From the IMG/VR virus record IMGVR_UViG_3300014962_000043, positions 1 through 27,414 of that record: a stretch of DNA of 27,414 bases; one strand, written 5' to 3'. The notes below the pieces were generated by a model. The model saw only the letters and a program-made list of their open reading frames with translations. It made no database searches and was not told the origin of the DNA. The stretch's first letter is position 1, and every line of letters starts with the position of its first letter. A program made the translations under genes and the position numbers. This document shows, piece by piece, positions 1,461 to 26,454 of the stretch. Source of the stretch: a virus.

Positions 1461-1733
1461 ATGAACGAAACTTACAAGAAGGTTCTCTGGGACAAGACCG
1501 CCAACTCTATAGAGAAGAACATCATGCTGATGATTCTCCTAAAGTATGAGGGCATGTCTTTCTCAGGGAATCAAGCAGAGATGGCTGAGGATTTCGGCGT
1601 CTCTGTAGCAACTCTCAGGCGGGCGCTTGCCAGCTTGAAGCGCTTGGGGTGGGTCACATCAAAGCGGATTTATACGGCAGGCACCCACAACCTTAGACAC
1701 GTTGATGGGTGCCTGTACCATATCACCCTTTGA
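1461..1733 (+). CDS. Small winged-helix DNA-binding protein
   Basis: The 90-residue product reads as one winged helix-turn-helix domain. Helices follow around residues 14-30. The recognition helix-turn-helix is at residues 38-62 (AEMAEDFGVSVATLRRAL), and a wing-like GWVTSKRIYTAG segment leads to the C-terminus. The arrangement resembles the N-terminal HTH of phage replication-initiation proteins and GntR/MarR-type regulators. No effector or helicase-loader domain follows, so it is probably a stand-alone regulator or origin-binding factor. A TGAGGCGGCC stretch precedes ATG 1461. It is the last gene of the rightward group, and its final codons overlap the stop of the convergent late operon (1723-1733). 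An exact inverted repeat lies inside its 3' coding end and could be its own operator or a junction structure. Confidence 0.75.
   Translation: MNETYKKVLWDKTANSIEKNIMLMILLKYEGMSFSGNQAEMAEDFGVSVATLRRALASLKRLGWVTSKRIYTAGTHNLRHVDGCLYHITL
1678..1715. repeat. Perfect 10-bp inverted repeat at the convergent gene junction
   Basis: CAGGCACCCA at 1678-1687 is exactly complementary to TGGGTGCCTG at 1706-1715, with an 18-nt spacer. It lies in the last codons of the winged-helix gene and just beyond the stop codon of the opposing late operon (1723-1725). It would form a GC-rich hairpin in either transcript. No T-run follows on either strand, so it is not a standard intrinsic terminator. A bidirectional transcription barrier or a protein-binding palindrome are the alternatives. 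Confidence 0.6.
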
Positions 1734-4700
1734 GAACAGGGGCCGTCTTGGCGATGCGCAGAGCCTGCACGACAATATCATCGGGGGTATGAAGCACGCG
1801 CTTTGTCTCCCCGTCCATAGCCCGCTTGGCGGCTTTAAACATCTTGTCTACCTCAGGAATCCTGCCGCCCGTAGCCCTTTTGATAGAAGCCTCTTTGGCC
1901 TTGTTTCTTAGACGCTTTGTTATATCGCGACCGAATTGTTCCGCTGCCGGAAGCGTCGAGCTTACCAAATTCTGCACACCACGGCCCGGATTGCCCCCGG
2001 CTACGTTAACCGCCGCTAAAGAGGCCTGAGATATGGGTGATGGTGCCATATCCGCTGTATTGTATGCTCCATAAAGACGCTGCGATGTGCTTTCTGGAGT
2101 AGCCTCGCGAGCCATTCGCTTGACACTTGGCGGAACGATGGCCGAGTAGTTTGGGTTGTTGAATTCGGCCTGAAGTTGCTCTGGCGATGCGCGCCCGGCT
2201 TCATATTCGCTTTTGAGCCATGCGCGATAATCACGCTGCATGTTTCCTACGTTCTGAATGTCCTGAGCGGAAGACCGTACCCGACCAACATTCTCAGCGA
2301 CAGACCGATCGTCCCCACCAAAGTTAGGGGGGAATCTTCCTTCGGCTTTAGGTCCTTTCAGAAAAGAAACCCACCCACCTTCATCATAACCCTGAACATC
2401 TCCACCTTCGGCCTTGGTGATGTCTTCCTCATTCGGGTCAAATGACTCAGCGTTGATGGACTTCACTTGAGACGGATGAAAAACAACATAACTGTCTGAC
2501 CCCTTGTCCTCGTATTTGTTACGATAGACAAGGCCATCATAGCCCTCTTGCTTGGCTTGCGCGACAGCATCTGACCAATCATGGCCCTGATCCGTAACGC
2601 GTTTTGGATTCTTGATGTTCAGATATGCTGCTGTCATGTTCCCCATTTCTTCTGGGGATTGATCTATGTCCGAATACTGTTCCTGCGCAAAGTTTTCCGC
2701 GTGGCGCTTGGCGTGTTCCTTGGACGGAAAGCCCTCTTCATTTAGTTCTGCGGAATCTGTCCCATCGCCCGCAAACCAATGCCATTTACCATCAGCATCT
2801 TGGTCGTATTGAACGCTCTTGATGAAGTCATCAACAGGCTTGCCATAGGCTCTTTCTGTCGCTGCTTGTTTGGTCCCAAAATGCATGCCGTGAGGCCCTA
2901 CGTCAGGGACCTTATGTTCATTTTCAGAGAAATCACCATGGTGATGAACAATCAGAGGTTTGTTCTCTTTATCACGAACCTTACTGTCCTTGTGCCATTC
3001 TGTAAGTTTATCATTGCGCGATGGAGCGACACCGGCCATTTGCTTCAGGCCGTTTGTTGCCTCGTCAATAGCGCCGCCGTCAGCCATGCCCTGCATCGCA
3101 TTAGCGAGAAGGCCTTGTGTGGCGGAATGGATATCCCTGTTGCGCACATCGCTCTTGCGGACAGAGCCGCCATTGGCGAACTGAGGTAGATTGCCAGCCG
3201 CAATGCCGGTGGCCATCGGCACCCTTCCAGCCGTAGACAAAGCAAACTCACCCAAAGACCGGCGCAGAGACGGATTCTGGGCAATCATCTGCATCACATC
3301 CCGGAAGTCATTCGGGTCCTGCGATGAAATTTTTTCCCACATCCGCTGGGCGTATCTCTCGCCCATCTTCTGGTTGCTCCATAGGCCAAGCCAACGAGCC
3401 GCAGCCGCAGGAGCGCTGAAGATGCCCCACAACAGAGCCCGGACTTCTTGCCCTGCCCCCGGCGTGGCGCGCATCTTCGCTACATCCTTAGCTACTTGAG
3501 AAATCATATTCTCAGTGTGGATATAGCGCTGGAGGTTCTCCATGTTCTTCGGCATCAGGATGCTTTCCATCGCATCCCGGATGTACGGAGTTTTGAGATA
3601 GCTTTCCAACTTGGCGGCATTGATCTGCCCCGGCTGTGAACGGGACTGAGCGCGGGCCAGAAGATCAGTCAGGAGACCATGCTGAGCAAGTTCACGCTCT
3701 TCCGGCGACATATACTTGGCCTTTGAAGCAAGCGCCGCCGCATCCCGTGCGTTGTTCACTTTCTTCAGAAGGTCAGTTCCAAACTGCAAGGCAGTCCGCT
3801 GGTCAGAGAAATCTGAGTATTTGGCGCGGGTTTCCGCATAGAGCGGGTTGTAAAACTTGCCCTTAGGATCAGTCAGGGCATCGAGAATCTCGCGACGAGC
3901 GCCAGAAAGCCCCTTGGCGCTATCGCCCTTCGGGGTAAATTCCGCCCCATACCGCCCCTCAATGACATTGTTTAGGTTCCGTTGGAGTTTGTCGAGATAA
4001 GGAATATCGACACGGTTCCTGAACGCAACCGCCCATTCAGGCATATTGGTGCCTGCCACAGTCGGCGTAAACTTCAATCCCGTCTTTGGATCAATCCGCT
4101 CTACCGGGCGGAAGGGAGACATAAAGCTGGCGGGATCACGGCCTTGAAGCGCCATCGAATCCCGGATTTCGTTTTCAGTTTCAACAACCGCCTTACGGAA
4201 CGACGGGCTTTTCAGCCAAAAATCCCATGACCGGTCCCACGACCCAGAACCAACACCCGGCTGGAGAACCTGAGCGTAGCGTTGATCGGACTGTTGCTTA
4301 GCCAGATTCACCGCGCGCTGATTCAGTTCGACCGGGTTCTCCGCCGTCCCGCGCATGCGGGTGATAAAATCCTCAAACCGCTCGTTCTGGCTCTGGAGAC
4401 GCTGCATCGTATGCGTCTGCCAGTCTTGCAGAATCTCCGGGTTTTTCTTCAGCGCCTTGGCCGCCTCATTGCGGAAGTTCTGGCCATACATGTCCATGAC
4501 CGCGACCGGCTGACCACGATTCAGGGCATCCATGACATCGGCAGGAGCCATGCGGACATCGCCTGCCGCCATATCTTTCTGGGCGGCCTGACCAAGGCGA
4601 TTCCACTGCGCGTTATCGGTGCGCCCAAAAGTCTTCACCCAGTCAGGGGCAACAGCCTGATACGCTTTGCCTATACCAAGACCAGCAGCGCCCAGCCCAG

Positions 4701-5385
4701 CACCAAGCCCGCCACCAAGGACAGCCGCTTGCCCAATGCCGGTCTTTTCGCTTTCAGGCTGGGTGCCAAATAGTTTCTCGCCCGCAGCAGTAGCCGCGCC
4801 ATATCCAGCGCCTTCCGCGCCATAGCCTGCGATCTTGGCGGCAGTCTGACCCACCGTGCCAGCGCCACGCGCCGCAGCAGCCGTTCCAGCAGCCGCCCCA
4901 AGCCCCGTGGGAAGGGTTGCAATAGCTCCAGTCACCTGCCCGGCCAGACCAGCAATCTTGTGCCCAGTGCCCTCAGAATAAGCCCGGCGGAGCGCTTCGT
5001 CCTCAGCCCGAAGCTGTTCATAGCGTTCGCCAAAGGTCTTGCCTTCGCCCTTGCCAAGGCCCGCCAGAACAGCGCGGCTTGCGGCTTCACCCGCCGGTCC
5101 AATGAAAGGGATATCTCCAACGCCGCGAGCAAACGCAGTAGCGTATCCGCCTGTCAGTCCGCCCTTGACCTCTTCTCTAGCGCGAGGCAGGAGGCCCTGA
5201 ACTTTCTCTTCATAAGCACGTTCAGCTTCGGCCTCTTTGGTTGGCGGCTTCCCGCCTTTTGTTGGGTCACCAAAAATACTTTCCAAACTTTGCGGTTCAG
5301 AAGGTTTCTCAGGTTGCGCCCCCGTTGTAGGCTTAGCTCCGCCCGGAGCGCCGAACATTTTCTCCAGATCGAATTGATCGGCCAT
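1723..5385 (-). CDS. Giant internal-virion/ejection-type protein with embedded ADP-ribosyltransferase-like domain
   Basis: The 1220-residue multidomain protein is the last gene of the late operon. A charged N-terminus (1-75) precedes a long Ala/Gly-rich, weakly hydrophobic region (about 140-240), as in phage proteins that enter or cross membranes during DNA ejection. Residues 250-720 are mostly helical and charged. Two GG linkers follow (QFANGGSV at 735, GMADGGAI at 766). Residues 795-988 resemble ADP-ribosyltransferase domains of polyvalent proteins: SKVRDKENKPLIV, then HHHG, then MHFGT, AYLNIKNP, GYDGLVYRN and SYVVFHPSQVKSI. Residues 1061-1115 form a module shared with the 493-residue protein encoded at 9438-10919. 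GGAGG lies about 6 nt before ATG 5385, and the gene starts 2 nt after the preceding stop. Placement and composition suggest a virion protein delivered into the host; the exact role is inferred. Confidence 0.8.
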   Translation of the reverse strand: MADQFDLEKMFGAPGGAKPTTGAQPEKPSEPQSLESIFGDPTKGGKPPTKEAEAERAYEEKVQGLLPRAREEVKGGLTGGYATAFARGVGDIPFIGPAGEAASRAVLAGLGKGEGKTFGERYEQLRAEDEALRRAYSEGTGHKIAGLAGQVTGAIATLPTGLGAAAGTAAAARGAGTVGQTAAKIAGYGAEGAGYGAATAAGEKLFGTQPESEKTGIGQAAVLGGGLGAGLGAAGLGIGKAYQAVAPDWVKTFGRTDNAQWNRLGQAAQKDMAAGDVRMAPADVMDALNRGQPVAVMDMYGQNFRNEAAKALKKNPEILQDWQTHTMQRLQSQNERFEDFITRMRGTAENPVELNQRAVNLAKQQSDQRYAQVLQPGVGSGSWDRSWDFWLKSPSFRKAVVETENEIRDSMALQGRDPASFMSPFRPVERIDPKTGLKFTPTVAGTNMPEWAVAFRNRVDIPYLDKLQRNLNNVIEGRYGAEFTPKGDSAKGLSGARREILDALTDPKGKFYNPLYAETRAKYSDFSDQRTALQFGTDLLKKVNNARDAAALASKAKYMSPEERELAQHGLLTDLLARAQSRSQPGQINAAKLESYLKTPYIRDAMESILMPKNMENLQRYIHTENMISQVAKDVAKMRATPGAGQEVRALLWGIFSAPAAAARWLGLWSNQKMGERYAQRMWEKISSQDPNDFRDVMQMIAQNPSLRRSLGEFALSTAGRVPMATGIAAGNLPQFANGGSVRKSDVRNRDIHSATQGLLANAMQGMADGGAIDEATNGLKQMAGVAPSRNDKLTEWHKDSKVRDKENKPLIVHHHGDFSENEHKVPDVGPHGMHFGTKQAATERAYGKPVDDFIKSVQYDQDADGKWHWFAGDGTDSAELNEEGFPSKEHAKRHAENFAQEQYSDIDQSPEEMGNMTAAYLNIKNPKRVTDQGHDWSDAVAQAKQEGYDGLVYRNKYEDKGSDSYVVFHPSQVKSINAESFDPNEEDITKAEGGDVQGYDEGGWVSFLKGPKAEGRFPPNFGGDDRSVAENVGRVRSSAQDIQNVGNMQRDYRAWLKSEYEAGRASPEQLQAEFNNPNYSAIVPPSVKRMAREATPESTSQRLYGAYNTADMAPSPISQASLAAVNVAGGNPGRGVQNLVSSTLPAAEQFGRDITKRLRNKAKEASIKRATGGRIPEVDKMFKAAKRAMDGETKRVLHTPDDIVVQALRIAKTAPVLKG
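2422..3003 (-). other. ADP-ribosyltransferase-like domain (residues 795-988 of the 1220-residue protein)
   Basis: The segment order matches the ART fold found in phage and mobile-element polyvalent proteins. It has an SKVxDxxxKPLxV opening, a His-Gly motif (residues 814-817), a G-x-HFGT strand with AA-x-x-R (833-845), and AYLNIKNP (920-927). These are followed by EGYDGLVYRN (947-956) and a closing SYVVFHPSQVKSI (965-977). In the family the His-Gly motif usually reads YHGT and helps bind NAD; here it is HHHGDF, so activity is uncertain. Borders are estimated by eye. Confidence 0.65.
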
Positions 5386-5387
5386 GA

Positions 5388-8300
5388 TCAGCCTCCGAAG
5401 GCATAGCGGGACAGGTTATCAATACCAAAATACTTCTTGGCGTAGGCGTCAAACGCCTCACGCTTGATCTGACCATTTTGAAGCATGGTCAGCGGATTGC
5501 CCTGCGGCGACCGAAGCGCGAGAATCTTCTCAATCGCCTGTTTGTCTTGGAGATACCGTTCCTGCGGGACAACAGCGCGGAACACATCCTCCGCATTACG
5601 GCCCGCATTGTTGGAATAGTCTCCATACAGGCTGTAAATCTGCGCACGATCCATGTTGCGCTTGTTGGCAACGATCAGATCGGCGGTCAGGCTACGCGCC
5701 GTTTCTGCCGTCATGCCCGCGCTAGGATATGCTTTGGACAGGGTCTGGAGCCAAACTGCGGCCTCACGGCCAAGACCACGCTGTTCTTTTTGAGTGCTAA
5801 GCGTGCCCAGCTTGTCCAGCATTTCCTTTGAGGACATCGCGCCATTCACGCCAGCATCCACACCAAAGGATTTTGCAAATGTGTTGATGTAGTTCGCGAC
5901 CTGATAGCGCAATTCAGATGCTGCGCCGGGGGTCAGGGGACCAGATGCCGGAAGCCCAGAAATCGCCTTGGACAAAGCCGCCAGATCGTTCAGGGAGTTG
6001 GTTGCGGCCTTACCCTCGCGCTGAGCCTCGCCATTGATCTCAGCATATTCCTTCTGAAGCTGAGGACCATTGGTGCCCCATGCCTTCTGACTGATTTCTT
6101 CGCCCATCTTGCGCATCACATCTAGCTTCTGCTGGGCGGTTTCTCCGCCATGCAAAGGCGCGAAGTTGAAGACGCGCTTTTCGGTTTCCGTCTGCGCGCC
6201 GCCGGGAGCAGGAGCGCCGGTCGCTGTCGGAGCCTGCGGAGCCGTAGGAGCGCCGGGAGCCGTCGTGGGAGCCGCGCCACCGGGGCCGGGGACAATCGTC
6301 TCGCCGCCAGCCGCAGGCATTTTCGGAACTTCGATTTTGACGCCGCCTTCCGGGGTAGCCGTAAAACGAGCATATCCGCCGGGGCCGGGGATGAACTGGC
6401 CAGCAACAGCGCCCTGCTCTTCTTTTTTGGCCGCCGCACGAGTCTGCTCAGTGCCAGCTTGCGTCGAGGCAGCTTCACGCTGGCTCTTCTGAGCATCCAA
6501 CAACGTGCGAGCATAGGTATCGGCAGCCGCCGCCAGACCCACGCCCGGGCGGCCCGGAGTGCCAGCAAATTTCAGCGAGGCCTGAATGAAGGCCAGACGC
6601 TGCTCCGGCGTCATGGCAATGCCAAGCATACCGAACAGCCCTTCCTTAGTGGCGCGTGACTGAATCGGAATGCGCGCTTCATCGGGTGAGGCCGGAACGC
6701 GAGTGGTCTGTGCCGGGGCCTGAGCCTGCTGCACGCCTTGAGGGGCCTGCGGAGCCGCCCCAGCAGCGCCTTGACCGCCCATAGGACGGTTCAAAAAGTT
6801 AAAGACTTCGGAAGCAGTGCGGGGGGAGCCGTCGCGGTTGAAAAATACGTTGCGATTGGCGGCAACCTGATCAGGCTGAGCCAACGCCGTAGCCGGGCCG
6901 TTCGGGTTTTCCTGCATGCCCTTGATGAAGCGGGGACCGCCACCAGCACCAAGGAACCAAGACATATAGAGGTTTTGGTTGTTGGGTTCGATGCCTTGAG
7001 ATTGAAGCACACGCGCGAGTTCCTTGCGATGAGCCTCTGCCACGCGGGGATCATTTTTGCTTGCGCCCTCAAGCTCAGGATTCCGGGCAAGAACACCGCG
7101 ATAGGTTGCATCAGTAAATTGATAAAGCCCGCTTGCGCTGCTTTTCGGATTGCGCGCATTGGCATCTCCACCGCTTTCGCGCGGGGTGATGTAGCTAAGG
7201 AAGTCTGATTGACGCGGAGCCTGAGGAACAGGCTTGGTGAGGTCCAAAGGCTGACGCTCAACGTCAGTCTCAGCAGGGCCGCCATCAGCGAGGTGAATAC
7301 GGCCACCATGCGCAGCGCCAAGGATGCCAGAAGCCGCCTCAGCCTCTTCTTGAGGCGTCAAACCCGACATGCCAGCCCCTGCGCGAGACTGAGCCTGCTG
7401 AGCGAGGTCTTCCTTCGTCTGCATCCCATAGTCAAAGTTAAAAGGATTCACAGTGCCGCCAGCCGCATACAAATTGCTGAGGTCAGCAGTGCCTTCCGGG
7501 GTCGTGTTCGTCGTATCTGTCCCGACCGGCTCGACGCCAACGGGGGCCTGCGGGCCAAGCTGACGAGGCGCAGCCGCCTGAGGCTGGGCGGGCTTGGTCC
7601 CCATCATCGACTTGATGTTCTTGACCATGCTGTCAAGGCTATCGTCCTTGGCCATCTGCGGCTGCTGGGGCGGCTTGAACCCACCCTGACTCTGCATGGG
7701 CGCAGGGACGTATGACTGAGCCTGCATGCCAGCAATCGGGCTCATGCCGAGGACGCCGGGGACGCCACCATCCGCCATGTGCGGGATAGCCGCTTCCTTG
7801 GTTGCCGCCTGATAATCAACGGTTTTAATGCCGCCAAAGTCATGCACGGCCTCAGGCTTCACATGCTCGACTTCTTGAGCCATCAGGCCAAGTTGAGTTT
7901 GGCTAGGGTCTTGGCCTTTGAGATTGTAAGAATAGATATTTTGGCCGTCATTCGTCTTGCCAACTTGCTGTATATTTTCTTTTAGGCGCTCATCCGAAAC
8001 AGGAAAGCCAATAGCCGCAAGGCCGCCCATCAAAGAACTGCCAAGGCCACCAATGCCCCCGGAGCCGCCCATAGCGCCAAGCGCGCCGCCAAAACCGAGA
8101 AGCTGGTTGAACATGCTGGGCTGAGCCGCAGTCGTGGTGGTCGTGCCGCCAAGAGAACTGGCCGCGCCACTCATCAATCCGCCAAACCAGTTTGCAAGGT
8201 TGTACGGATACTGCTGCTGATTCAAGAACTGCTGATAGGCGGTGCTGAGTCCAGCCTGACCAAGTTGACGTTCCAGCCCACCATACCCAAGCTGCGCGCC

Positions 8301-8945
8301 AAGCTGAGCCAACTGAGCCTGCTGCTGAGCCGGTCCCATCTGCGCCAGAAGACCCGCACCAGACTGAGCCAACTGCCCGCTCTGAAGCTGACGCTGAAGA
8401 TCGACATTCTGCTGCTGGTTGAACATGCCCAGAGCCTGCGAGTAGCCCTGATTCGCAATATTCGCGAGAGTGGCATTATTCGCAAGGTTCTGTTGGCGAG
8501 CCAGTTCGGCCTGCGCAACACGGGCCCGATCACCGCCAAATGCTCCGCGTTGGATAGCATTGCCAGTCAATTGATTCTGCTGCTGCGCATTCGTCTCCAT
8601 AATGTTCTGGGCGGTTGTTCCCATCACGTTCTGGAGATAAGGCGACATATATTGCTGAACTGCCTGAGGCGAGAACTGCATTTGCTGGATGGGCTGAGAC
8701 CCCTGCATGGCCATCCCAGCAGCCGTGTTGAAATAAGGCTCCGTTCCCCCAAACAAGCCCGCAATCCCTTGTCCCGCCGCCTGTTCATAAGGCGACAAAC
8801 CTGCCACCAGCGGACCTTGATACGCCTCATACGGCTTTTGCAGTAGCGGCTTAGCAAAGCTTAAAAGCTCATCGTAGCCCTTCGTTACTGCTGCGGGCGG
8901 CGTATAAGTCGTAACTTGCGGTTTGGAGGAGCAAAAGGAACCCAT
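5388..8945 (-). CDS. Large virion protein: Q-rich structural N-terminus, S74 chaperone-peptidase domain, lytic transglycosylase
   Basis: The 1185-residue protein has several parts. Residues 1-100 resemble a phage structural family. Residues 85-280 are Gln-rich with a GAFGGDR motif (134-140), and a Gly-rich stretch runs over 282-313. SDERLKENI at 317-325 begins a peptidase S74/intramolecular chaperone domain, through GLMAQEVE to TVDYQAA near 380. Low-complexity linkers carry repeated A-x-GG motifs (HMADGG, YAAGG, GAAHGG, HLADGG). Residues 584-720 look like an SLT-type transglycosylase, with the candidate catalytic Glu in PRESGGD (E590) and SASGLYQFTDATY. Pro/Ala linkers and a helical C-terminus (925-1185) follow. 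Such proteins locally degrade peptidoglycan as DNA enters. AAGGA precedes ATG 8945. The mid-protein position of S74 is unusual, since it normally sits at the C-terminus of fibres. Confidence 0.82.
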   Translation of the reverse strand: MGSFCSSKPQVTTYTPPAAVTKGYDELLSFAKPLLQKPYEAYQGPLVAGLSPYEQAAGQGIAGLFGGTEPYFNTAAGMAMQGSQPIQQMQFSPQAVQQYMSPYLQNVMGTTAQNIMETNAQQQNQLTGNAIQRGAFGGDRARVAQAELARQQNLANNATLANIANQGYSQALGMFNQQQNVDLQRQLQSGQLAQSGAGLLAQMGPAQQQAQLAQLGAQLGYGGLERQLGQAGLSTAYQQFLNQQQYPYNLANWFGGLMSGAASSLGGTTTTTAAQPSMFNQLLGFGGALGAMGGSGGIGGLGSSLMGGLAAIGFPVSDERLKENIQQVGKTNDGQNIYSYNLKGQDPSQTQLGLMAQEVEHVKPEAVHDFGGIKTVDYQAATKEAAIPHMADGGVPGVLGMSPIAGMQAQSYVPAPMQSQGGFKPPQQPQMAKDDSLDSMVKNIKSMMGTKPAQPQAAAPRQLGPQAPVGVEPVGTDTTNTTPEGTADLSNLYAAGGTVNPFNFDYGMQTKEDLAQQAQSRAGAGMSGLTPQEEAEAASGILGAAHGGRIHLADGGPAETDVERQPLDLTKPVPQAPRQSDFLSYITPRESGGDANARNPKSSASGLYQFTDATYRGVLARNPELEGASKNDPRVAEAHRKELARVLQSQGIEPNNQNLYMSWFLGAGGGPRFIKGMQENPNGPATALAQPDQVAANRNVFFNRDGSPRTASEVFNFLNRPMGGQGAAGAAPQAPQGVQQAQAPAQTTRVPASPDEARIPIQSRATKEGLFGMLGIAMTPEQRLAFIQASLKFAGTPGRPGVGLAAAADTYARTLLDAQKSQREAASTQAGTEQTRAAAKKEEQGAVAGQFIPGPGGYARFTATPEGGVKIEVPKMPAAGGETIVPGPGGAAPTTAPGAPTAPQAPTATGAPAPGGAQTETEKRVFNFAPLHGGETAQQKLDVMRKMGEEISQKAWGTNGPQLQKEYAEINGEAQREGKAATNSLNDLAALSKAISGLPASGPLTPGAASELRYQVANYINTFAKSFGVDAGVNGAMSSKEMLDKLGTLSTQKEQRGLGREAAVWLQTLSKAYPSAGMTAETARSLTADLIVANKRNMDRAQIYSLYGDYSNNAGRNAEDVFRAVVPQERYLQDKQAIEKILALRSPQGNPLTMLQNGQIKREAFDAYAKKYFGIDNLSRYAFGG
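6786..7208 (-). other. Lytic transglycosylase-like domain (residues 580-720)
   Basis: PRESGGDANARNP followed by SSASGLYQFTDATY resembles the catalytic Glu and the G-L-x-Q-F motif of SLT-type lysozyme folds. YMSWFLGAGGGPRFIKG continues the fold. E590 is the candidate catalytic acid. Confidence 0.75.
7800..8000 (-). other. Peptidase S74 / intramolecular chaperone domain (residues 316-382)
   Basis: SDERLKENI (317-325) followed by GQNIYSYNLKG, TQLGLMAQEVE and GGIKTVDYQA is the S74 signature. In the family the Ser of the SD pair and the Lys five residues later form the self-cleaving dyad; both are present here (S317, K322). Confidence 0.85.
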
Positions 8946-8956
8946 GCTATTCGTCC

Positions 8957-9430
8957 TTATGATGCCCGCGCATGCGCAGTCGTTTTATCGTTGTACAAGA
9001 AAAAGGCCCCAGCCTTCTTCATCTGCCGCTCAAACAGCTTGATCTTGGACTCAGTCCTGACATTGGAAACGACACCCGTCATCAGCGGAATGCCCATTTC
9101 ATCAGAACACCGTTTAGCGAATTGCAGGAGATATTTGGCCCGCGTCGAGCGCCGGTAGGCCGGGCGGACAAAGTCGAAAACATCACCCAGATGCAGATCG
9201 TGGGTGTACCAGAGATTCGTGACCATCAGACAGATAGCCGCCTCAATCTCCGACTCGTTCTTGATCACGCCAATGATGCACTTATCATGTCGCGTTGCAG
9301 CATGAATCATGTCCCAGACAAGGTCCGGGGCCATATCAAACAGACCGTTTTCCGCATGCATCGTGGTGAGGAGGGCATAAAGGTCCTCCTCATCCTCCTG
9401 TGTCGCTATCGATACGGTGTACTCGTCCAT
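8957..9430 (-). CDS. GNAT-family N-acetyltransferase
   Basis: The 157-residue protein has the layout of a phage GNAT acetyltransferase. It has an N-terminal strand and helix (residues 3-25), a central sheet (IEAAICLMVTNLWY) and a DVFDFVRPAYRR strand leading into RRSTRAKYLL. This last segment is the acetyl-CoA pyrophosphate-binding turn in place of the usual R/QxxGxG/A. A LFERQMKKAGAFFLY C-terminal motif follows. GNAT proteins move an acetyl group from acetyl-CoA to an amine; the substrate cannot be read from sequence. It lies between two virion protein genes, 7 nt after one stop and 11 nt before the next start, so it is expressed late. It might modify a virion or host protein, or be packaged. 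AGGTGA lies 4 nt before ATG 9430. Confidence 0.82.
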   Translation of the reverse strand: MDEYTVSIATQEDEEDLYALLTTMHAENGLFDMAPDLVWDMIHAATRHDKCIIGVIKNESEIEAAICLMVTNLWYTHDLHLGDVFDFVRPAYRRSTRAKYLLQFAKRCSDEMGIPLMTGVVSNVRTESKIKLFERQMKKAGAFFLYNDKTTAHARAS

Positions 9431-9437
9431 TTATCAC

Positions 9438-10919
9438 CTAATCACGGCGGGGCCCGGGGAGGTTCTTTAGAGTCTTGGCGACATGGTCGCGGACGTATTT
9501 GACGAAGTTGTCCAGATACTCGTGCCCGGCGTCTTCGCTGCCTTCGCCCAGCATCTTAACAACTTCCGGCGGAACCACATACTCGCCGCCCGCCGCGATG
9601 ATCGGTACAGCCTTTTTCTCTTCAGAGATAGCGCCGCCCCGCTTGGAATACTTCGGCGGCTCATACTGGGAGGACATCCGCTCAGCCTGCGGGAACTTTG
9701 GCGAAGCGCGATGCTGAGCGGGCTCCGTGCCATACGGCCCCATCTTGAACATGCGGTTCAGGATTTCCGTGCCAGCCAGCGTATTGCCCTCGCCCAGACC
9801 GGACACGATGTCCGCAGGGAGGACATAGGAGTTGGCTAGAACATGCATCGGGATGTGGTCCGTGCGCCCGCCAACCGCCATGTTGATGATGCCGCTATGG
9901 CATTCCGGCTCTTTGGTCTGCGCCAGACGCATCGCCCGATCCACAGAGCCGCCAGAAGCATACTGACCAGCACCACGAATCCGTTGTAAGGCCGCATCGG
10001 CGCGGGCAAAGTCAGCCGGGTTGTTCGGATCACCAAAGTTAATCTGGCCCGTGGGGGAGATCACTTCCTCACCGGTGCTTTGATACATCGCTCCAGCCCG
10101 GCCAAGGGCCGCAGGACGCTCAGGAGGCATCGGAGCCGCCGCAGCCTGCCCCGCGCCCGCAGGACGTACAGGAGGACGAGGAACAGCCGCCGCAGCGCGC
10201 CCAAGACCAGCAGGTCGCACAGGCGGGACAGGGATGTTCTCTTCAGCCGCCGCCGCAGGACGAGAACCAAACGGCATGTTGGGGACGCCCTGAGTGGCAA
10301 GGATCGGGACACCAGCCGCAGTCGTAGCCGCCACAGTTCCCCTAGCAGGTGCGCCAGACATGCCTGCACGGGCCGGAATGCCAGTACCACGGAGCCACAT
10401 GCCAAGGCGCTCAGCCATGGAAAGACCGGGCGAGCCAGCCGTCAGGTAAGATGCGCCCGCAGAAGGAGCCTCAAATCCAGTCCGCATGGCGGAAGCGGGA
10501 TTGACCACGCCAGCGCCACGCAGGAGGCCATAAGCGCCCATCGCCATAGGCACATAGGTTGCGACATTCTGAGCGCCTTGAAGACGGGCGGCAGTGCTTT
10601 CCGGGGTTGCTGAAGTTACGGCCCGGCGGACACTAGGAGGCACTGTGCTGCCATATGTCGGCTGAGAATACTCACGCTCAAGCTGATCAGCCGTAATACG
10701 GCCTTCCGCATATCCCTGCTGCATTTGCTGGCGGCGAGCGCGCTGTTCAGCCGCCATCCGGTCCAGATCAGCCAGATTTCTCTGCCGAACGCTCAGATTA
10801 TAGCCCACAGGAGGGTTCGTCGGCGGGGTGGGGACGGTGGAGGCGGCAGGAGCCACCCGGACAGGCATGCGGCCCTCTTCTACGCCTTCTTGGTACAGAT
10901 CGTCGTAATACCCAGCCAT
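9438..10919 (-). CDS. Phage structural protein with Pro/Arg/Ala repeats and duplicated LGEG motifs
   Basis: The 493-residue protein has no enzyme motif. Residues 57-124 form a module shared with the 1220-residue protein (PPSVRR, ATPESTAARL). Residues 228-275 carry three imperfect Pro-Arg-Pro-Ala units (VPPVRPAGLGRAAAA, RPPVRPAGAGQAAAA, MPPERPAALGRAG). The C-terminal half has ASGGSV (321), then two related blocks. The first is YVLPADIVSGLGEG at 365-378; the second, after IIAAGGEYVVPPEV, is VVKMLGEG at 453-460. They match at 12 of 27 aligned positions. The basic C-terminus (KTLKNLPGPRRD) is typical of a phage virion-associated family without known function. TAGGAGG lies 5 nt upstream of ATG 10919. 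Its place among late virion genes suggests a minor structural or internal protein. Confidence 0.72.
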   Translation of the reverse strand: MAGYYDDLYQEGVEEGRMPVRVAPAASTVPTPPTNPPVGYNLSVRQRNLADLDRMAAEQRARRQQMQQGYAEGRITADQLEREYSQPTYGSTVPPSVRRAVTSATPESTAARLQGAQNVATYVPMAMGAYGLLRGAGVVNPASAMRTGFEAPSAGASYLTAGSPGLSMAERLGMWLRGTGIPARAGMSGAPARGTVAATTAAGVPILATQGVPNMPFGSRPAAAAEENIPVPPVRPAGLGRAAAAVPRPPVRPAGAGQAAAAPMPPERPAALGRAGAMYQSTGEEVISPTGQINFGDPNNPADFARADAALQRIRGAGQYASGGSVDRAMRLAQTKEPECHSGIINMAVGGRTDHIPMHVLANSYVLPADIVSGLGEGNTLAGTEILNRMFKMGPYGTEPAQHRASPKFPQAERMSSQYEPPKYSKRGGAISEEKKAVPIIAAGGEYVVPPEVVKMLGEGSEDAGHEYLDNFVKYVRDHVAKTLKNLPGPRRD

Positions 10920-12471: not shown

Positions 12472-12813
12472 TTAAGAGTAGCTTACGGACACGGTTTGAC
12501 CCGTCCCCGGCGTCACAATCAGTCCAGTCGTAAACGGCATATTAACTTGGAACACGCCAATCGTATTGGGTATGACGCATATTGTGCTTGATGTAGCCCC
12601 TGTGCTGGTCGAATCATAAGCATGACCAACCGTAGTCCCCGCAACGGTCACGCTAATATAAGCCACACGTCCTTCACCGCTTTTCACCAATGTTGCGGCG
12701 GTTATATCTAGACGCGTTTGCATCCCATTGACGTTTGAATATGTCTGCGAAGCGTTGTTCAACGCTGTCACGATATTCTTGGTGGCTGTGAGGATGTCTG
12801 TAAGAGATGACAT
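12472..12813 (-). CDS. Small phage protein, beta-rich, probable structural
   Basis: I do not recognise a named family with certainty. The 113-residue protein has an N-terminal helix (TDILTATKNIVTALNNA) and then beta-rich sequence (GRVAYISVTVAGTTVGHAYD, ICVIPNTIGVFQVN, GLIVTPGTGQTVSVSYS). It lies between the gp10-like tail gene and a fibre gene; its ATG overlaps the gp10-like stop as TAATG and no good ribosome-binding site is seen, so translation is probably coupled. A small tail or fibre-attachment component fits the context. Confidence 0.65.
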   Translation of the reverse strand: MSSLTDILTATKNIVTALNNASQTYSNVNGMQTRLDITAATLVKSGEGRVAYISVTVAGTTVGHAYDSTSTGATSSTICVIPNTIGVFQVNMPFTTGLIVTPGTGQTVSVSYS

Positions 12814-14936
12814 TAGAAACGTCCATCCGGCTGAAAGCGGTATCTGATAGCGCCAAGCCTCCAGAACCCATTAATATCATCGTTTGTGCTGCTTACAGCA
12901 ATAGAAACGAGACGCCCTCTCATTCTCGTTGAGATGAACTGATTGGCCTGAGTTACAGAATATGGACCATACACCCGTGGCGTATCACCGGGGTAGTTTG
13001 TTACATAAAAGGTGATATTGATGTTGGCGTTTTGTGCATCGCCATATAAACCCCAGCGCATGTCTGGCCAGAACTGATCTATGAAGCTCTGGAATTGACC
13101 ATCTTGAATTGTGAAGTAACCAGTCTGGAAACTGGAATTAATAAGCGCGCCTGCTGCACTATTTGAGGTTTCATGCTGATAGATATACCTGTCTTCAGAC
13201 GCGCCAATTGGCGGACCAAGCACAGATTCATTGATCCATGCGGTGCGGCTTAGCGTTCCGTAATCCCAGACATTCAGAAGCGTATTGTATTTCACATACG
13301 CATTGACTTCGCCGCCATTGCTCTTGGTCGGGTAGAACCAAGATATTTCACCAAAACGGCTGTTAGCCGCAACACGAATCTTATCGACATTGGTCAGGTC
13401 AAGGTCTTGGAAGATAACGTCCCAGACTGTACAAGGCAGCGTCTCTACGCCTTGCCCAGAGAGCCTATAAAATTGCGTCGGACCCATCCAATAAATGACG
13501 CCATTCAATGACGTGGCGGCTTTTCTGGAGACAAGGCCACATCCATTGCCTATTTCATTGAAGCTATAAACATAAGGCGCTCCAATATATTGCATGGCCC
13601 AAAGACCGATGTCAGTCCATACGAGGCCCTGTTGCGGGCCTTGAATACAAGATACAATCCTTGAGCCCTTCGGGATTCTATATGACCCTGCTTGATTTAT
13701 GGCCTGAGCGTACCAAACATCGTAGTTCTCGACATCACACCAGCGGAGAAGAAGCGGGTCTTGGATGCCATTGAAGGATGAACCCCAAGCAACAATTTGT
13801 CTTTGCGGCATGGCAACAAACATGCCATCATTAACGGCAGGAGCATTTACGATTGCTTGCGCCACAGGTGATCCCGATTGAGGCGACCACTGATAAATGG
13901 GAGCATATGGAAATGCCCCGCCATCAACTTGTGAAGATGCCGGGCAGGTCAAAAGCGTCTCACCCCATGTGTCTAGAGACCAATCAGTTGTTGGGATCGC
14001 GTAACCCGTAGACGGAGAGATAGCCGTACCGACACCGTACCCGCCAGACCCATATCCGCCAGCGCCGTAGCCCGTTGAGGGCGGCGTAGGAGACAGCCCA
14101 ATATTGTATACAATATACCCATTGCCAGAATTTTCGTATACAGAGGCATTCGCTGTCGCACTGTTCTGTGCAGTTATATAAAAGGTCGTTGTGGGGTTGA
14201 GTGTATCAAGAGATTTGATAAGATAATTCCCATAAAGAACCACCCCGCCAACAGAGGTTGAGATTAGGATGGGGAATGTATCTCCGACCTGATATCCATG
14301 ATCAGGCAAAACGACTTTTACGCTTGATGAGCCATTTGTCGTTGTAAACTCTGGAACAACGCCGCTTGTGACGGATGCCGTAGCATTAATTGGCAAACCA
14401 GTTGGAGTTGTTGTTTGGATTGTAAAATGAGTGGCGTCGAAGAAGGAGCACTGGTAGGTCCCAAAAAGCACCAAGCCGCCAGCGGAGATTGGTGTTGCAA
14501 TAAACACAGACATCTCATTGGAGGACGTGAAAGACACGTCTTGTATTTTTACGATATTCGAGCCAATCGTTGTGGTGACATCGTTCACAGCAGTTACGCT
14601 AACTGTGCTTGCGTATTTGCGGGGGGTAATCCCCTTTAAGGTTCCATTGGTGAGGACCCCAAGATAGGCGGTCGGGCTTGGGTCTGCGTTGAGCCCGGTT
14701 CCAATCGCCAAATGCTTTTGGGAGTTTGTATCCTCCCATGCAAGGAGAGCCCGAATTAAGGCTGGAAGCGTGTTATCATAGAACTTGGTCCACCCACCAA
14801 GTTTTTGAACCAGAGCCTGATATTGGGGATCAGGGATAAACCGGATTAGATTTGACGTAGCAAAGCCCGCCTCATTCAGGGCGTATGTTTCGTTGCGATT
14901 AATGCCCGGTTTTAACTTTAGGGTGGCCTGCGGCAT
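12813..14936 (-). CDS. P22 gp10-like tail/DNA-stabilisation protein
   Basis: The 707-residue protein begins with KLKPGINRNETYALNEAGF and LGGWTKFYD, then RALLAWEDTNSQKHLAIGTG. This opening is characteristic of podovirus packaged-DNA stabilisation/tail-hub proteins related to P22 gp10. Residues about 105-300 hold Ig-like beta repeats (DVTTTIGSNIVKIQD, then PDHGYQVGD), ending in a Gly-Tyr repeat (GYGAGGYGSGGYGVG). The second half matches the rest of the family pattern (WGSSFNGIQDPLLLRWCDVEN, RIPKGSRIVSCIQGPQQ, WDVIFQDLD). In P22 gp10 forms the tail channel below the adaptor ring. The adaptor gene lies directly upstream with a 5-nt gap, which supports the call. AGGT lies 7 nt before ATG 14936. 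Confidence 0.75.
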   Translation of the reverse strand: MPQATLKLKPGINRNETYALNEAGFATSNLIRFIPDPQYQALVQKLGGWTKFYDNTLPALIRALLAWEDTNSQKHLAIGTGLNADPSPTAYLGVLTNGTLKGITPRKYASTVSVTAVNDVTTTIGSNIVKIQDVSFTSSNEMSVFIATPISAGGLVLFGTYQCSFFDATHFTIQTTTPTGLPINATASVTSGVVPEFTTTNGSSSVKVVLPDHGYQVGDTFPILISTSVGGVVLYGNYLIKSLDTLNPTTTFYITAQNSATANASVYENSGNGYIVYNIGLSPTPPSTGYGAGGYGSGGYGVGTAISPSTGYAIPTTDWSLDTWGETLLTCPASSQVDGGAFPYAPIYQWSPQSGSPVAQAIVNAPAVNDGMFVAMPQRQIVAWGSSFNGIQDPLLLRWCDVENYDVWYAQAINQAGSYRIPKGSRIVSCIQGPQQGLVWTDIGLWAMQYIGAPYVYSFNEIGNGCGLVSRKAATSLNGVIYWMGPTQFYRLSGQGVETLPCTVWDVIFQDLDLTNVDKIRVAANSRFGEISWFYPTKSNGGEVNAYVKYNTLLNVWDYGTLSRTAWINESVLGPPIGASEDRYIYQHETSNSAAGALINSSFQTGYFTIQDGQFQSFIDQFWPDMRWGLYGDAQNANINITFYVTNYPGDTPRVYGPYSVTQANQFISTRMRGRLVSIAVSSTNDDINGFWRLGAIRYRFQPDGRF

Positions 14937-18048: not shown

Positions 18049-18290
18049 CAGTGCTTGTCCTGCTTATTGTCAAGCCTCTCAAATATCTGGCGGCAAATAT
18101 CCTTGATCTCTTTCAACCCTTCCGCAAACTCGTTCTTCTGAACATAGCTTGTCGGAAGAGCCACCTCGATGCGCTTAACATCATCTCTTAAGGATTTTAC
18201 CGCAGACCAGAGTTCACGCGCAGCCCAGCCAATACCAGCCAGAACGATGCCGCCAAGGATGTTAATGACAAACTGCGCGTCCATTTTCAT
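18048..18290 (-). CDS. Small membrane protein with coiled coil (possible holin, XhlA-like)
   Basis: The 80-residue protein has one N-terminal hydrophobic segment (FVINILGGIVLAGIGWAA, residues 7-24). A charged helical region follows (LWSAVKSLRDDVKRIEVAL and GLKEIKDICRQIFERLDNK) that can form a coiled coil. This layout is common in small phage membrane proteins sometimes annotated as XhlA-type hemolysin/holin. It sits two genes before the endolysin, so a holin role is plausible, but one TM plus coiled coil is also compatible with a fibre-linked accessory. ATG 18290 overlaps the upstream stop (ATGA) with AGAGG 4 nt before it. ATG 18284 is an alternative. Confidence 0.65.
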   Translation of the reverse strand: MKMDAQFVINILGGIVLAGIGWAARELWSAVKSLRDDVKRIEVALPTSYVQKNEFAEGLKEIKDICRQIFERLDNKQDKH

Positions 18291-19870
18291 GCTGCCTCTC
18301 TGTTTGGCGGCCCTTTTTTAAGGAACTTTAAGTTACCTTGTAAACGGGCATCATGTGGAGACATTTCGACAGCCTTCTTGGCGTGTTCGACAGATATGTC
18401 ATGCAGACCAAGATGATAGGCTGCTATGCTTGCCAAATCATGTGGCTGATGCCCCCAGACTTCAGGGTCAACCGTGTAGACCATTTCGCGGTTGGTGATA
18501 CGAAGAGCCCTCATGGCTGCCGCGAAACACTCTTCCCACCGATGCTGCCGATACATAAGCATCGCCAACTCGCACCAAGGCTCCCGCGTGTTCGGGGCTT
18601 CATAAGCCGCCATCTGAAACATTCGCTCAGCGTTATATGTGTCGCCAAGCTCGTTGTAGCAGCGGCCCATGACGCGGTATGCGTAGCACCTTTCGTTTGG
18701 CCAGTCGGCGCGCGGCAGATTCAGATACCGTTCACAGGCAGCAATGCTTTCACGCCATTTGCCATGAAAACTTAACTCACGAGCGTAATAAAAGGCATTG
18801 CGGGGGCAGTCTGGGTCCTCTTTGACAGACAGCTCAAGAAGATCGAGGTACTGACCACGAGATTTTGTCGGATCAGGCTTATGGACGACCAGAAGCATGT
18901 CTGTATCCGCCCAGACCTCCTGTACGCGCCCATCTGCAACCGGATATTCATGGCACGGGTGATGCCAATGATATCCATGGCGGGCATGAATCTTCTCATA
19001 CTTGAAAGCTATCCCGCAGCCCCAATCAAACATGTACCGGAGACGAGTTGTCTTCCCAAGCTCCCAAACACGCTCAATCTCTTCCCGCCACCCGGGCTGG
19101 AGAACCTCGTCTAGGTCCAAAGAGATACATATATCAATATCACGAGGTACCAAAGCAAGTGCAACGTTGCGAGCATGGTCAAACCGCCAAGGAGTAATGC
19201 AAATGTGATTGACAACAGCACCACACTTGCGAGCTTTTTCAACTGTCCCATCGGAGCTTCCAGTATCAGAGATTGAAACTAGATCAGCTTCCTTGGCGGC
19301 TTCGCAAAACCGTTCAACAAACTGCTCTTCGTTTTTGCTAATAGCGTAGACACAAATCTTCGGTCTTAGCTTGTGTTTCGACCAGATATAGACTCCAATT
19401 TCTCCGTCAATTGTATTCCAATCAGAGCTACCAAAAGCCTCTACGAAGCTTTCATGCGTCCAGTTGTCTGTGACATGGGTCTCATGCGGATTCCCGTCGT
19501 ATTCTCCCTGAGGATGATAGCCAATGGGAATACTAACGACCACTGTATCCGCGCACGCACGAAGCTTCTTAATAAGAGCTTTAGCTTCGTCGGTCGTCAT
19601 ATGCTCTAGGACATCTCCAGCGATAGCTACATCATAGTGCTCGTCTGGTTCCCATTTACGCGCATCAACAACAATCAAATTGTCGTATAGCGTATCTAAC
19701 CGATACTTTTCGACATATGGCTGCCAGATTTCAATTCCAGTCATATGAGAGTCATCAAACATCAGGGCGTATGTGCCGCAGCCACAGCCAACATCTAGGA
19801 TTTTCTCGTGAGGAATACGCGAGACAATCCTTTTGATTGATTCCTTCCCGCGTTCAGAGCTAAAAGGCAT
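18287..19870 (-). CDS. Fused SAM methyltransferase - family 2 glycosyltransferase - TPR protein
   Basis: The 527-residue protein has three parts. Residues 1-165 form a class I SAM methyltransferase: ILDVGCGCGTYAL (24-36) is motif I, GIEIWQPYVEKY holds the acidic ribose-binding end, and DVLEH lies at 86-90. Residues 171-345 form a GT-A family 2 glycosyltransferase: CVYAISKNEE, then SDTGSSDGT (201-209), and a DxD metal site in LDLDE (251-255). Residues 350-515 are TPR-like helical repeats (YAYRVMGRCYNELGDTYNAE, CELAMLMYRQHRWEEC) that may hold a polypeptide acceptor. GAGG lies 6 nt before ATG 19870. The gene starts 1 nt after the 60-residue protein, itself just downstream of the collagen-like fibre. 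Sugar donor, acceptor and methyl target are unknown. Fibre decoration is the best inference; host surface modification is the alternative. Confidence 0.85.
   Translation of the reverse strand: MPFSSERGKESIKRIVSRIPHEKILDVGCGCGTYALMFDDSHMTGIEIWQPYVEKYRLDTLYDNLIVVDARKWEPDEHYDVAIAGDVLEHMTTDEAKALIKKLRACADTVVVSIPIGYHPQGEYDGNPHETHVTDNWTHESFVEAFGSSDWNTIDGEIGVYIWSKHKLRPKICVYAISKNEEQFVERFCEAAKEADLVSISDTGSSDGTVEKARKCGAVVNHICITPWRFDHARNVALALVPRDIDICISLDLDEVLQPGWREEIERVWELGKTTRLRYMFDWGCGIAFKYEKIHARHGYHWHHPCHEYPVADGRVQEVWADTDMLLVVHKPDPTKSRGQYLDLLELSVKEDPDCPRNAFYYARELSFHGKWRESIAACERYLNLPRADWPNERCYAYRVMGRCYNELGDTYNAERMFQMAAYEAPNTREPWCELAMLMYRQHRWEECFAAAMRALRITNREMVYTVDPEVWGHQPHDLASIAAYHLGLHDISVEHAKKAVEMSPHDARLQGNLKFLKKGPPNREAA

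Positions 19871-20124: not shown

Positions 20125-26454
<6,330 letters not shown>

Follow-up and report, generated by a model that had tools for sequence, protein, structure and literature searches.

A short S74 module with an invariant Ser-Lys pair at the seam of a probable fused ejection protein in uncultured podoviruses

The window, by which we mean the whole 27.4-kb stretch of DNA analysed here, is the virus record of an uncultured phage. Its minus strand carries an intact ORF of 1185 aa (5388..8945) that appears to encode a fused ejection polyprotein, composed of an internal virion protein B-like part, a short Peptidase_S74 (ICA) module and a hydrolase-bearing part, all described below on the same strand. 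The N-terminal part (residues 1-316, 7998..8945) is mostly helical and rich in Q, G and A (15.5%, 14.9% and 13.6%, respectively). It is followed by the S74 module (residues 317-381, 7803..7997), modelled with a pLDDT of about 95, in which Ser317 (codon TCG, 7995..7997) is the predicted nucleophile and Lys322 (codon AAA, 7980..7982) the predicted general base, the predicted cut falling between residues 316 and 317. Next comes a low-complexity linker (residues 382-580, 7206..7802) with A-x-GG motifs at residues 391, 494, 545 and 553, the start of which (around residue 382) corresponds to a gene boundary in cultured relatives. The remainder of the ORF consists of a gp144-like lytic transglycosylase domain (residues 583-722, 6780..7199), with the catalytic E590 at 7176-7178, and the rest of the hydrolase-bearing ejection protein up to its C-terminus (residues 723-1185, 5391..6779), for which no Pfam match was obtained.

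Indeed, a Pfam search with the whole ORF returned a single domain, Peptidase_S74, the PF13884 match extending over residues 317-368 and all 58 positions of the profile, with E 6e-9 and a score of 36.5 bits (cut-off 22), well outside what chance would give. The profile of PHROG 4287, annotated as DNA ejection protein (392 positions), matched residues 4-381 over profile positions 4-386 (E 7.8e-21), indicating that the N-terminal part and the S74 module together make up a complete protein elsewhere. The transglycosylase was recognised by sequence through phiKZ gp144 (3bkh, phmmer E 3.5e-10) and through PHROG 4067, a transglycosylase family (E 3.7e-19), as well as by fold, since the predicted structure matched 3bkh in Foldseek (E 5.9e-8, TMq 0.60). 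E590 aligns with gp144 E115 and is kept in nearly all aligned relatives. A preliminary description of this DNA had placed an S74 domain, with SDERLKENI at residues 317-325, in mid-protein between a Q/G-rich part of 316 residues and a transglycosylase with E590, the sizes on the two sides of the putative cut being 316 and 869 residues; all of these assignments were borne out.

An assembly or frameshift artefact as the origin of the long ORF was ruled out, as intact ORFs were found in a related contig (L002; 1211 aa, 85% identity in the N-terminal part and 64% in the rest) and in about 90 further loci. The A-x-GG and GYA-x-GG motifs of the linker (7206-7802, minus strand) recur in the ejection proteins encoded at 1723-5385 and 9438-10919. 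The 1185-aa ORF holds 10 such motifs, compared to 2.5 in shuffled sequences (0/1000 shuffles), an excess part of which may stem from the Gly-rich composition, and in fused relatives a GG lies 64-94 residues after the S74 Ser (n=111).

The surroundings of the ORF are those of podovirus ejection genes. A virion protein gene (PHROG 3287; 12813..14936, minus strand) in the position of the P22 gp10-like stabilisation protein, or tubular tail protein B, marks a podovirus tail module. Directly upstream of the fused ORF lies a GNAT-like gene (8957..9430, minus strand) in the position of P22 gene 14 and T7 internal virion protein A, as also found for phiGT1_16 and in locus L003, and directly downstream a 1220-aa gene (1723..5385, minus strand) in the position of internal virion protein D and P22 gp16. 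The order in the window thus runs from the GNAT-like gene (9430..8957) through the fused ORF to the candidate internal virion protein D, with the fused ORF placed after the tail tube B and GNAT-like genes and before the large internal virion protein, as is the case for podovirus ejection proteins. Residues 914-981, in the C-terminal part of the 1220-aa protein, resemble an ART-PolyVal-like ADP-ribosyltransferase domain, just under the Pfam cut-off (E 6e-7), and this part has relatives among cyanophage and other phage proteins, one of them named large polyvalent protein. Farther away, a 527-aa ORF (18287-19870, minus strand) looks by eye like a methyltransferase joined to a glycosyltransferase, and a 2109-aa protein (20125-26454, minus strand) shows, likewise by eye, long collagen-like GPT repeats.

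The counterpart of the N-terminal part and S74 module is a separate gene product in Sinorhizobium phage phiM5, Rhizobium phage RHph_N2, EBPR podovirus 2, Sulfitobacter phage pCB2047-C, NYA-2014a and phiGT1, and further in Microcystis phage Mwe-JY13, Pseudomonas phage PAE2 and a Bradyrhizobium phage. These stand-alone proteins end 62-78 aa past the Ser (median 70 for stand-alone forms), and in several relatives the gene that follows carries an annotation as peptidoglycan hydrolase or internal virion protein, while a GNAT-like gene precedes the S74 gene in several; that of phiGT1 is a relative of P22 gp14 and T7 internal virion protein A (PMC10386132). The gene order of the window is found at phiGT1_17 and phiGT1_18, phiM5_27/28, pCB2047-C genes 9/10 and EBPR podovirus 2 gp27/28, namely a GNAT-like gene (none is annotated in phiM5), the S74 protein, a hydrolase or internal virion protein and a large internal virion protein. 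Similar to the window, the S74 proteins of these four phages carry a short S74 with Ser and Lys(+5), which is C-terminal in them, but two separate genes stand where the window has one fused ORF. According to the record notes, both products were detected in the phiM5 particle proteome; no reports on cleavage were found for these separate proteins or for the fused form.

From the sequences, the ORF is best read as two adjoining ejectosome genes of a P22/LUZ24-like podovirus that have become one. The S74 module would lie in mid-chain for this reason and mark the old gene boundary. The N-terminal part is, judged by its PHROG match and by gene order, an ejection-type protein, and direct sequence similarity of this part to P22 gp7 and T7 gp14 was not detected. 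The sets gp14-gp15-gp16 of T7 and gp7-gp20-gp16 of P22 also follow the tail tube genes, and T7 also has a hydrolase in an ejected protein; in contrast to the fused ORF, however, they are separate genes without S74. The same kind of fusion occurs in MW202675.1, a complete uncultivated genome (Manatee Spring), whose 'internal virion protein D' of likewise 1185 aa carries the dyad and an SLT-like motif, its N-terminal part being 38% identical to that of the window and its transglycosylase being, by eye, of a different subtype.

S74 domains are C-terminal chaperones of trimeric fibres. Compared to fibre and spike S74 domains (endoNF, the T5 L-shaped fibre, the GA-1 neck appendage), with which it has PF13884 and the Ser-Lys dyad in common, the window module is neither C-terminal nor part of a fibre. 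It is short (about 65 residues), and its match to the 129-residue GA-1 S74 does not go beyond residues 1-67. A trimerising C-terminal helix or coiled coil is absent, as the model has only a short helix at residues 378-385, and no beta-helical stalk is predicted upstream of S74, where the model is mostly helical at low confidence (pLDDT about 35-80). In the alignment of the module with MyRF and other S74 structures, S317 and K322 fall on the MyRF dyad positions, and VIA-align gave a weak match to the MyRF fold (7dc3_B, Z 4.5, rmsd 3.7, 70 aligned, 23% identity); a Foldseek search with the model of residues 1-400 yielded no significant match. An internal S74 that splits its chain in two is established for one eukaryotic family, the transcription factor MYRF (PMC3742443, PMC8326128), where cleavage requires the C-terminal helix and trimerisation is driven by the coiled coil (PMC8326128). 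The MYRF ICA domain thus resembles the window module in lying within a longer chain from which two working parts are expected, but MYRF has a trimerising helix and a membrane anchor, whereas in the window a hydrolase follows S74.

The preliminary description had looked to homologues lacking the Ser-Lys pair as evidence against cleavage. Instead, Ser and Lys(+5) were kept in 162/162 S74-bearing loci from two scans. As the pattern of the first scan itself contained SD..K, conservation of the dyad was recounted with patterns lacking the pair, where S, D and K were present in 79/79 S74 domains, and with a pattern from the N-terminal core, which lies outside S74, where the dyad was present in 50/50 S74-bearing proteins; these recounts counter the explanation that conservation reflects search bias. 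In a tree built from 94 distinct segments, 0 changes were counted at positions 317, 318 and 322, compared to a median of 14 per column, although G329, G353, A356 and V367 are equally fixed, so invariance by itself is no proof of catalysis. The Ser codons comprise all four TCN and, rarely, AGY, which means that the DNA changed while the residue stayed. Lys to Arg was never seen, and the sole replacement of Ser was Cys with Lys kept (MLCDIRAKENI), in stand-alone proteins of four related Rhizobium loci (L261, L262, L264, L267), which at the sequence level is a natural nucleophile swap. An apparent loss of the dyad in L025, L033, L034 and L035 was traced to the ends of the HMM alignment; by eye, Ser and Lys(+5) are kept there, with insertions behind them. 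Where fusions lack S74, the module is lost whole rather than kept with a decayed dyad. These data show selection on the pair, and such all-or-nothing conservation agrees better with a role in catalysis than with one in structure.

To describe how widespread the fusion is, we used a locus set from the IMG/VR scans plus three loci from other searches, in which 91 loci have the fused form and 44 the stand-alone form, with another 26 being open or partial. On an S74 tree, weakly resolved owing to the short alignment, fused and stand-alone forms separate with 3 label changes. Some bacterial assemblies, with labels such as Bosea, Rhizobium and Opitutae, hold fused forms as well. The hydrolase behind S74 varies while the module itself persists, as among 45 scanned there were SLT (9), GH108 (3), phage lysozyme (2), Hydrolase_2 (1) and VanY (1). 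Moreover, two S74 modules occur in 19 ORFs, separated by some 160-410 aa and both with Ser and Lys(+5), from which three products would be expected if the modules are active (two-module loci include L013, L026, L037, L038, L042, L043, L050, L076, L085 and L103, and further L112, L123, L127, L135, L136, L148, L150, L159, L162 and L248). A scan on the N-terminal core alone, in turn, retrieved 24 long fusions with the same N-terminal part and without S74, 12 of the 18 scanned having an SLT domain (S74-less loci include L166, L170-L186, L207, L208, L215, L218, L219, L222, L239 and L141). A move of S74 to another gene in such phages was rejected, as in the stretches examined only L170 carries an S74 elsewhere, in an upstream ORF. 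On the N-core tree, presence of S74 switched about seven times, and the window's own clade holds members with and without it; together with the existence of S74-less SLT fusions, this indicates that a cut is dispensable for the hydrolase to work.

These S74-less fusions, which must either function uncut or be processed in some other way, and the missing activating helix are the points in favour of a module that does not cut, the short S74 serving as a folding or oligomerisation module for the N-terminal part (a chaperone relic) and the fusion acting as one long ejection protein. We consider this explanation rather unlikely, since Ser and Lys are invariant in the unbiased sets and unchanged across the 94 segments, and Ser to Cys is the sole replacement seen. 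Furthermore, a MyRF Ser-to-Ala mutant retains trimer folding (PMC8326128), so that a Ser at this position would not be needed if the role were structural only.

The presence of the Ser-Lys dyad and the hydrolase on one chain would also agree with a protein that stays whole in the virion until an infection-triggered cut frees the transglycosylase from an anchor, and the preliminary description had indeed seen a structural anchor in the N-terminal part and a possible release step in its cleavage. This part of the description was not supported. The N-terminal part is of the ejection type and neither an anchor nor a fibre, S74 ends the corresponding protein in cultured relatives, and such stand-alone forms could release only S74 itself; known S74 domains cut upon folding and trimerisation in assembly, not on infection (PMC8326128), which makes a release step at infection unlikely; and the 24 related fusions without S74 indicate that the hydrolase can act even where no S74 cut releases it. 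Overall, we regard an infection-triggered release as very improbable. Even less credit is given to internal translation initiation as an additional source of the hydrolase part, which would make cleavage unneeded to obtain it: Met390, shared with L002, closely follows S74, and its codon is preceded by AAGGAAG at a distance of some 15 bases, but the spacing is poor and the Met is absent in the other relatives read there (GHFYRGG, GHFAYGG and similar).

Taken together, we somewhat favour a model, based on sequence comparison, in which two ejectosome genes have fused and a cis-acting maturation cut by S74 takes place during assembly. The N-terminal part would fold and, presumably, oligomerise during assembly, whereupon Ser317, activated by Lys322, would most likely cut the 316/317 bond in cis, probably at this stage. 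Such a cut, which most likely separates two functional parts as foreseen in the preliminary description, would yield an ejection protein of 316 residues and an S74-transglycosylase ejection protein of 869 residues, which approximately correspond to the proteins encoded by two individual genes in cultured relatives. A precedent among ejection proteins is P22 gp7, which according to a record note is processed by a host protease.

Whereas the S74 family and its catalytic pair are known, its location at an ejection-polyprotein seam, its short form, its tandem arrangement and the breadth of its occurrence are undescribed in the literature searched. Our searches, which covered open-licence papers, found none that deals with S74 in ejection proteins, nor a description of such a maturation step in podovirus ejection machines. 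These results raise the question of how a short S74 without a trimerising helix gets switched on. More tentatively, it may well be that in a large group of uncultured podoviruses the ejection apparatus is made as a self-processing polyprotein. Its one or two short S74 modules, no longer tied to fibres, would serve as cis proteases gated by folding and divide a single precursor to give two or three ejection proteins with no separate maturation protease. That the catalytic pair of S74 stays unchanged where ejection proteins are joined points to a maturation step in the DNA-ejection machines of podoviruses.
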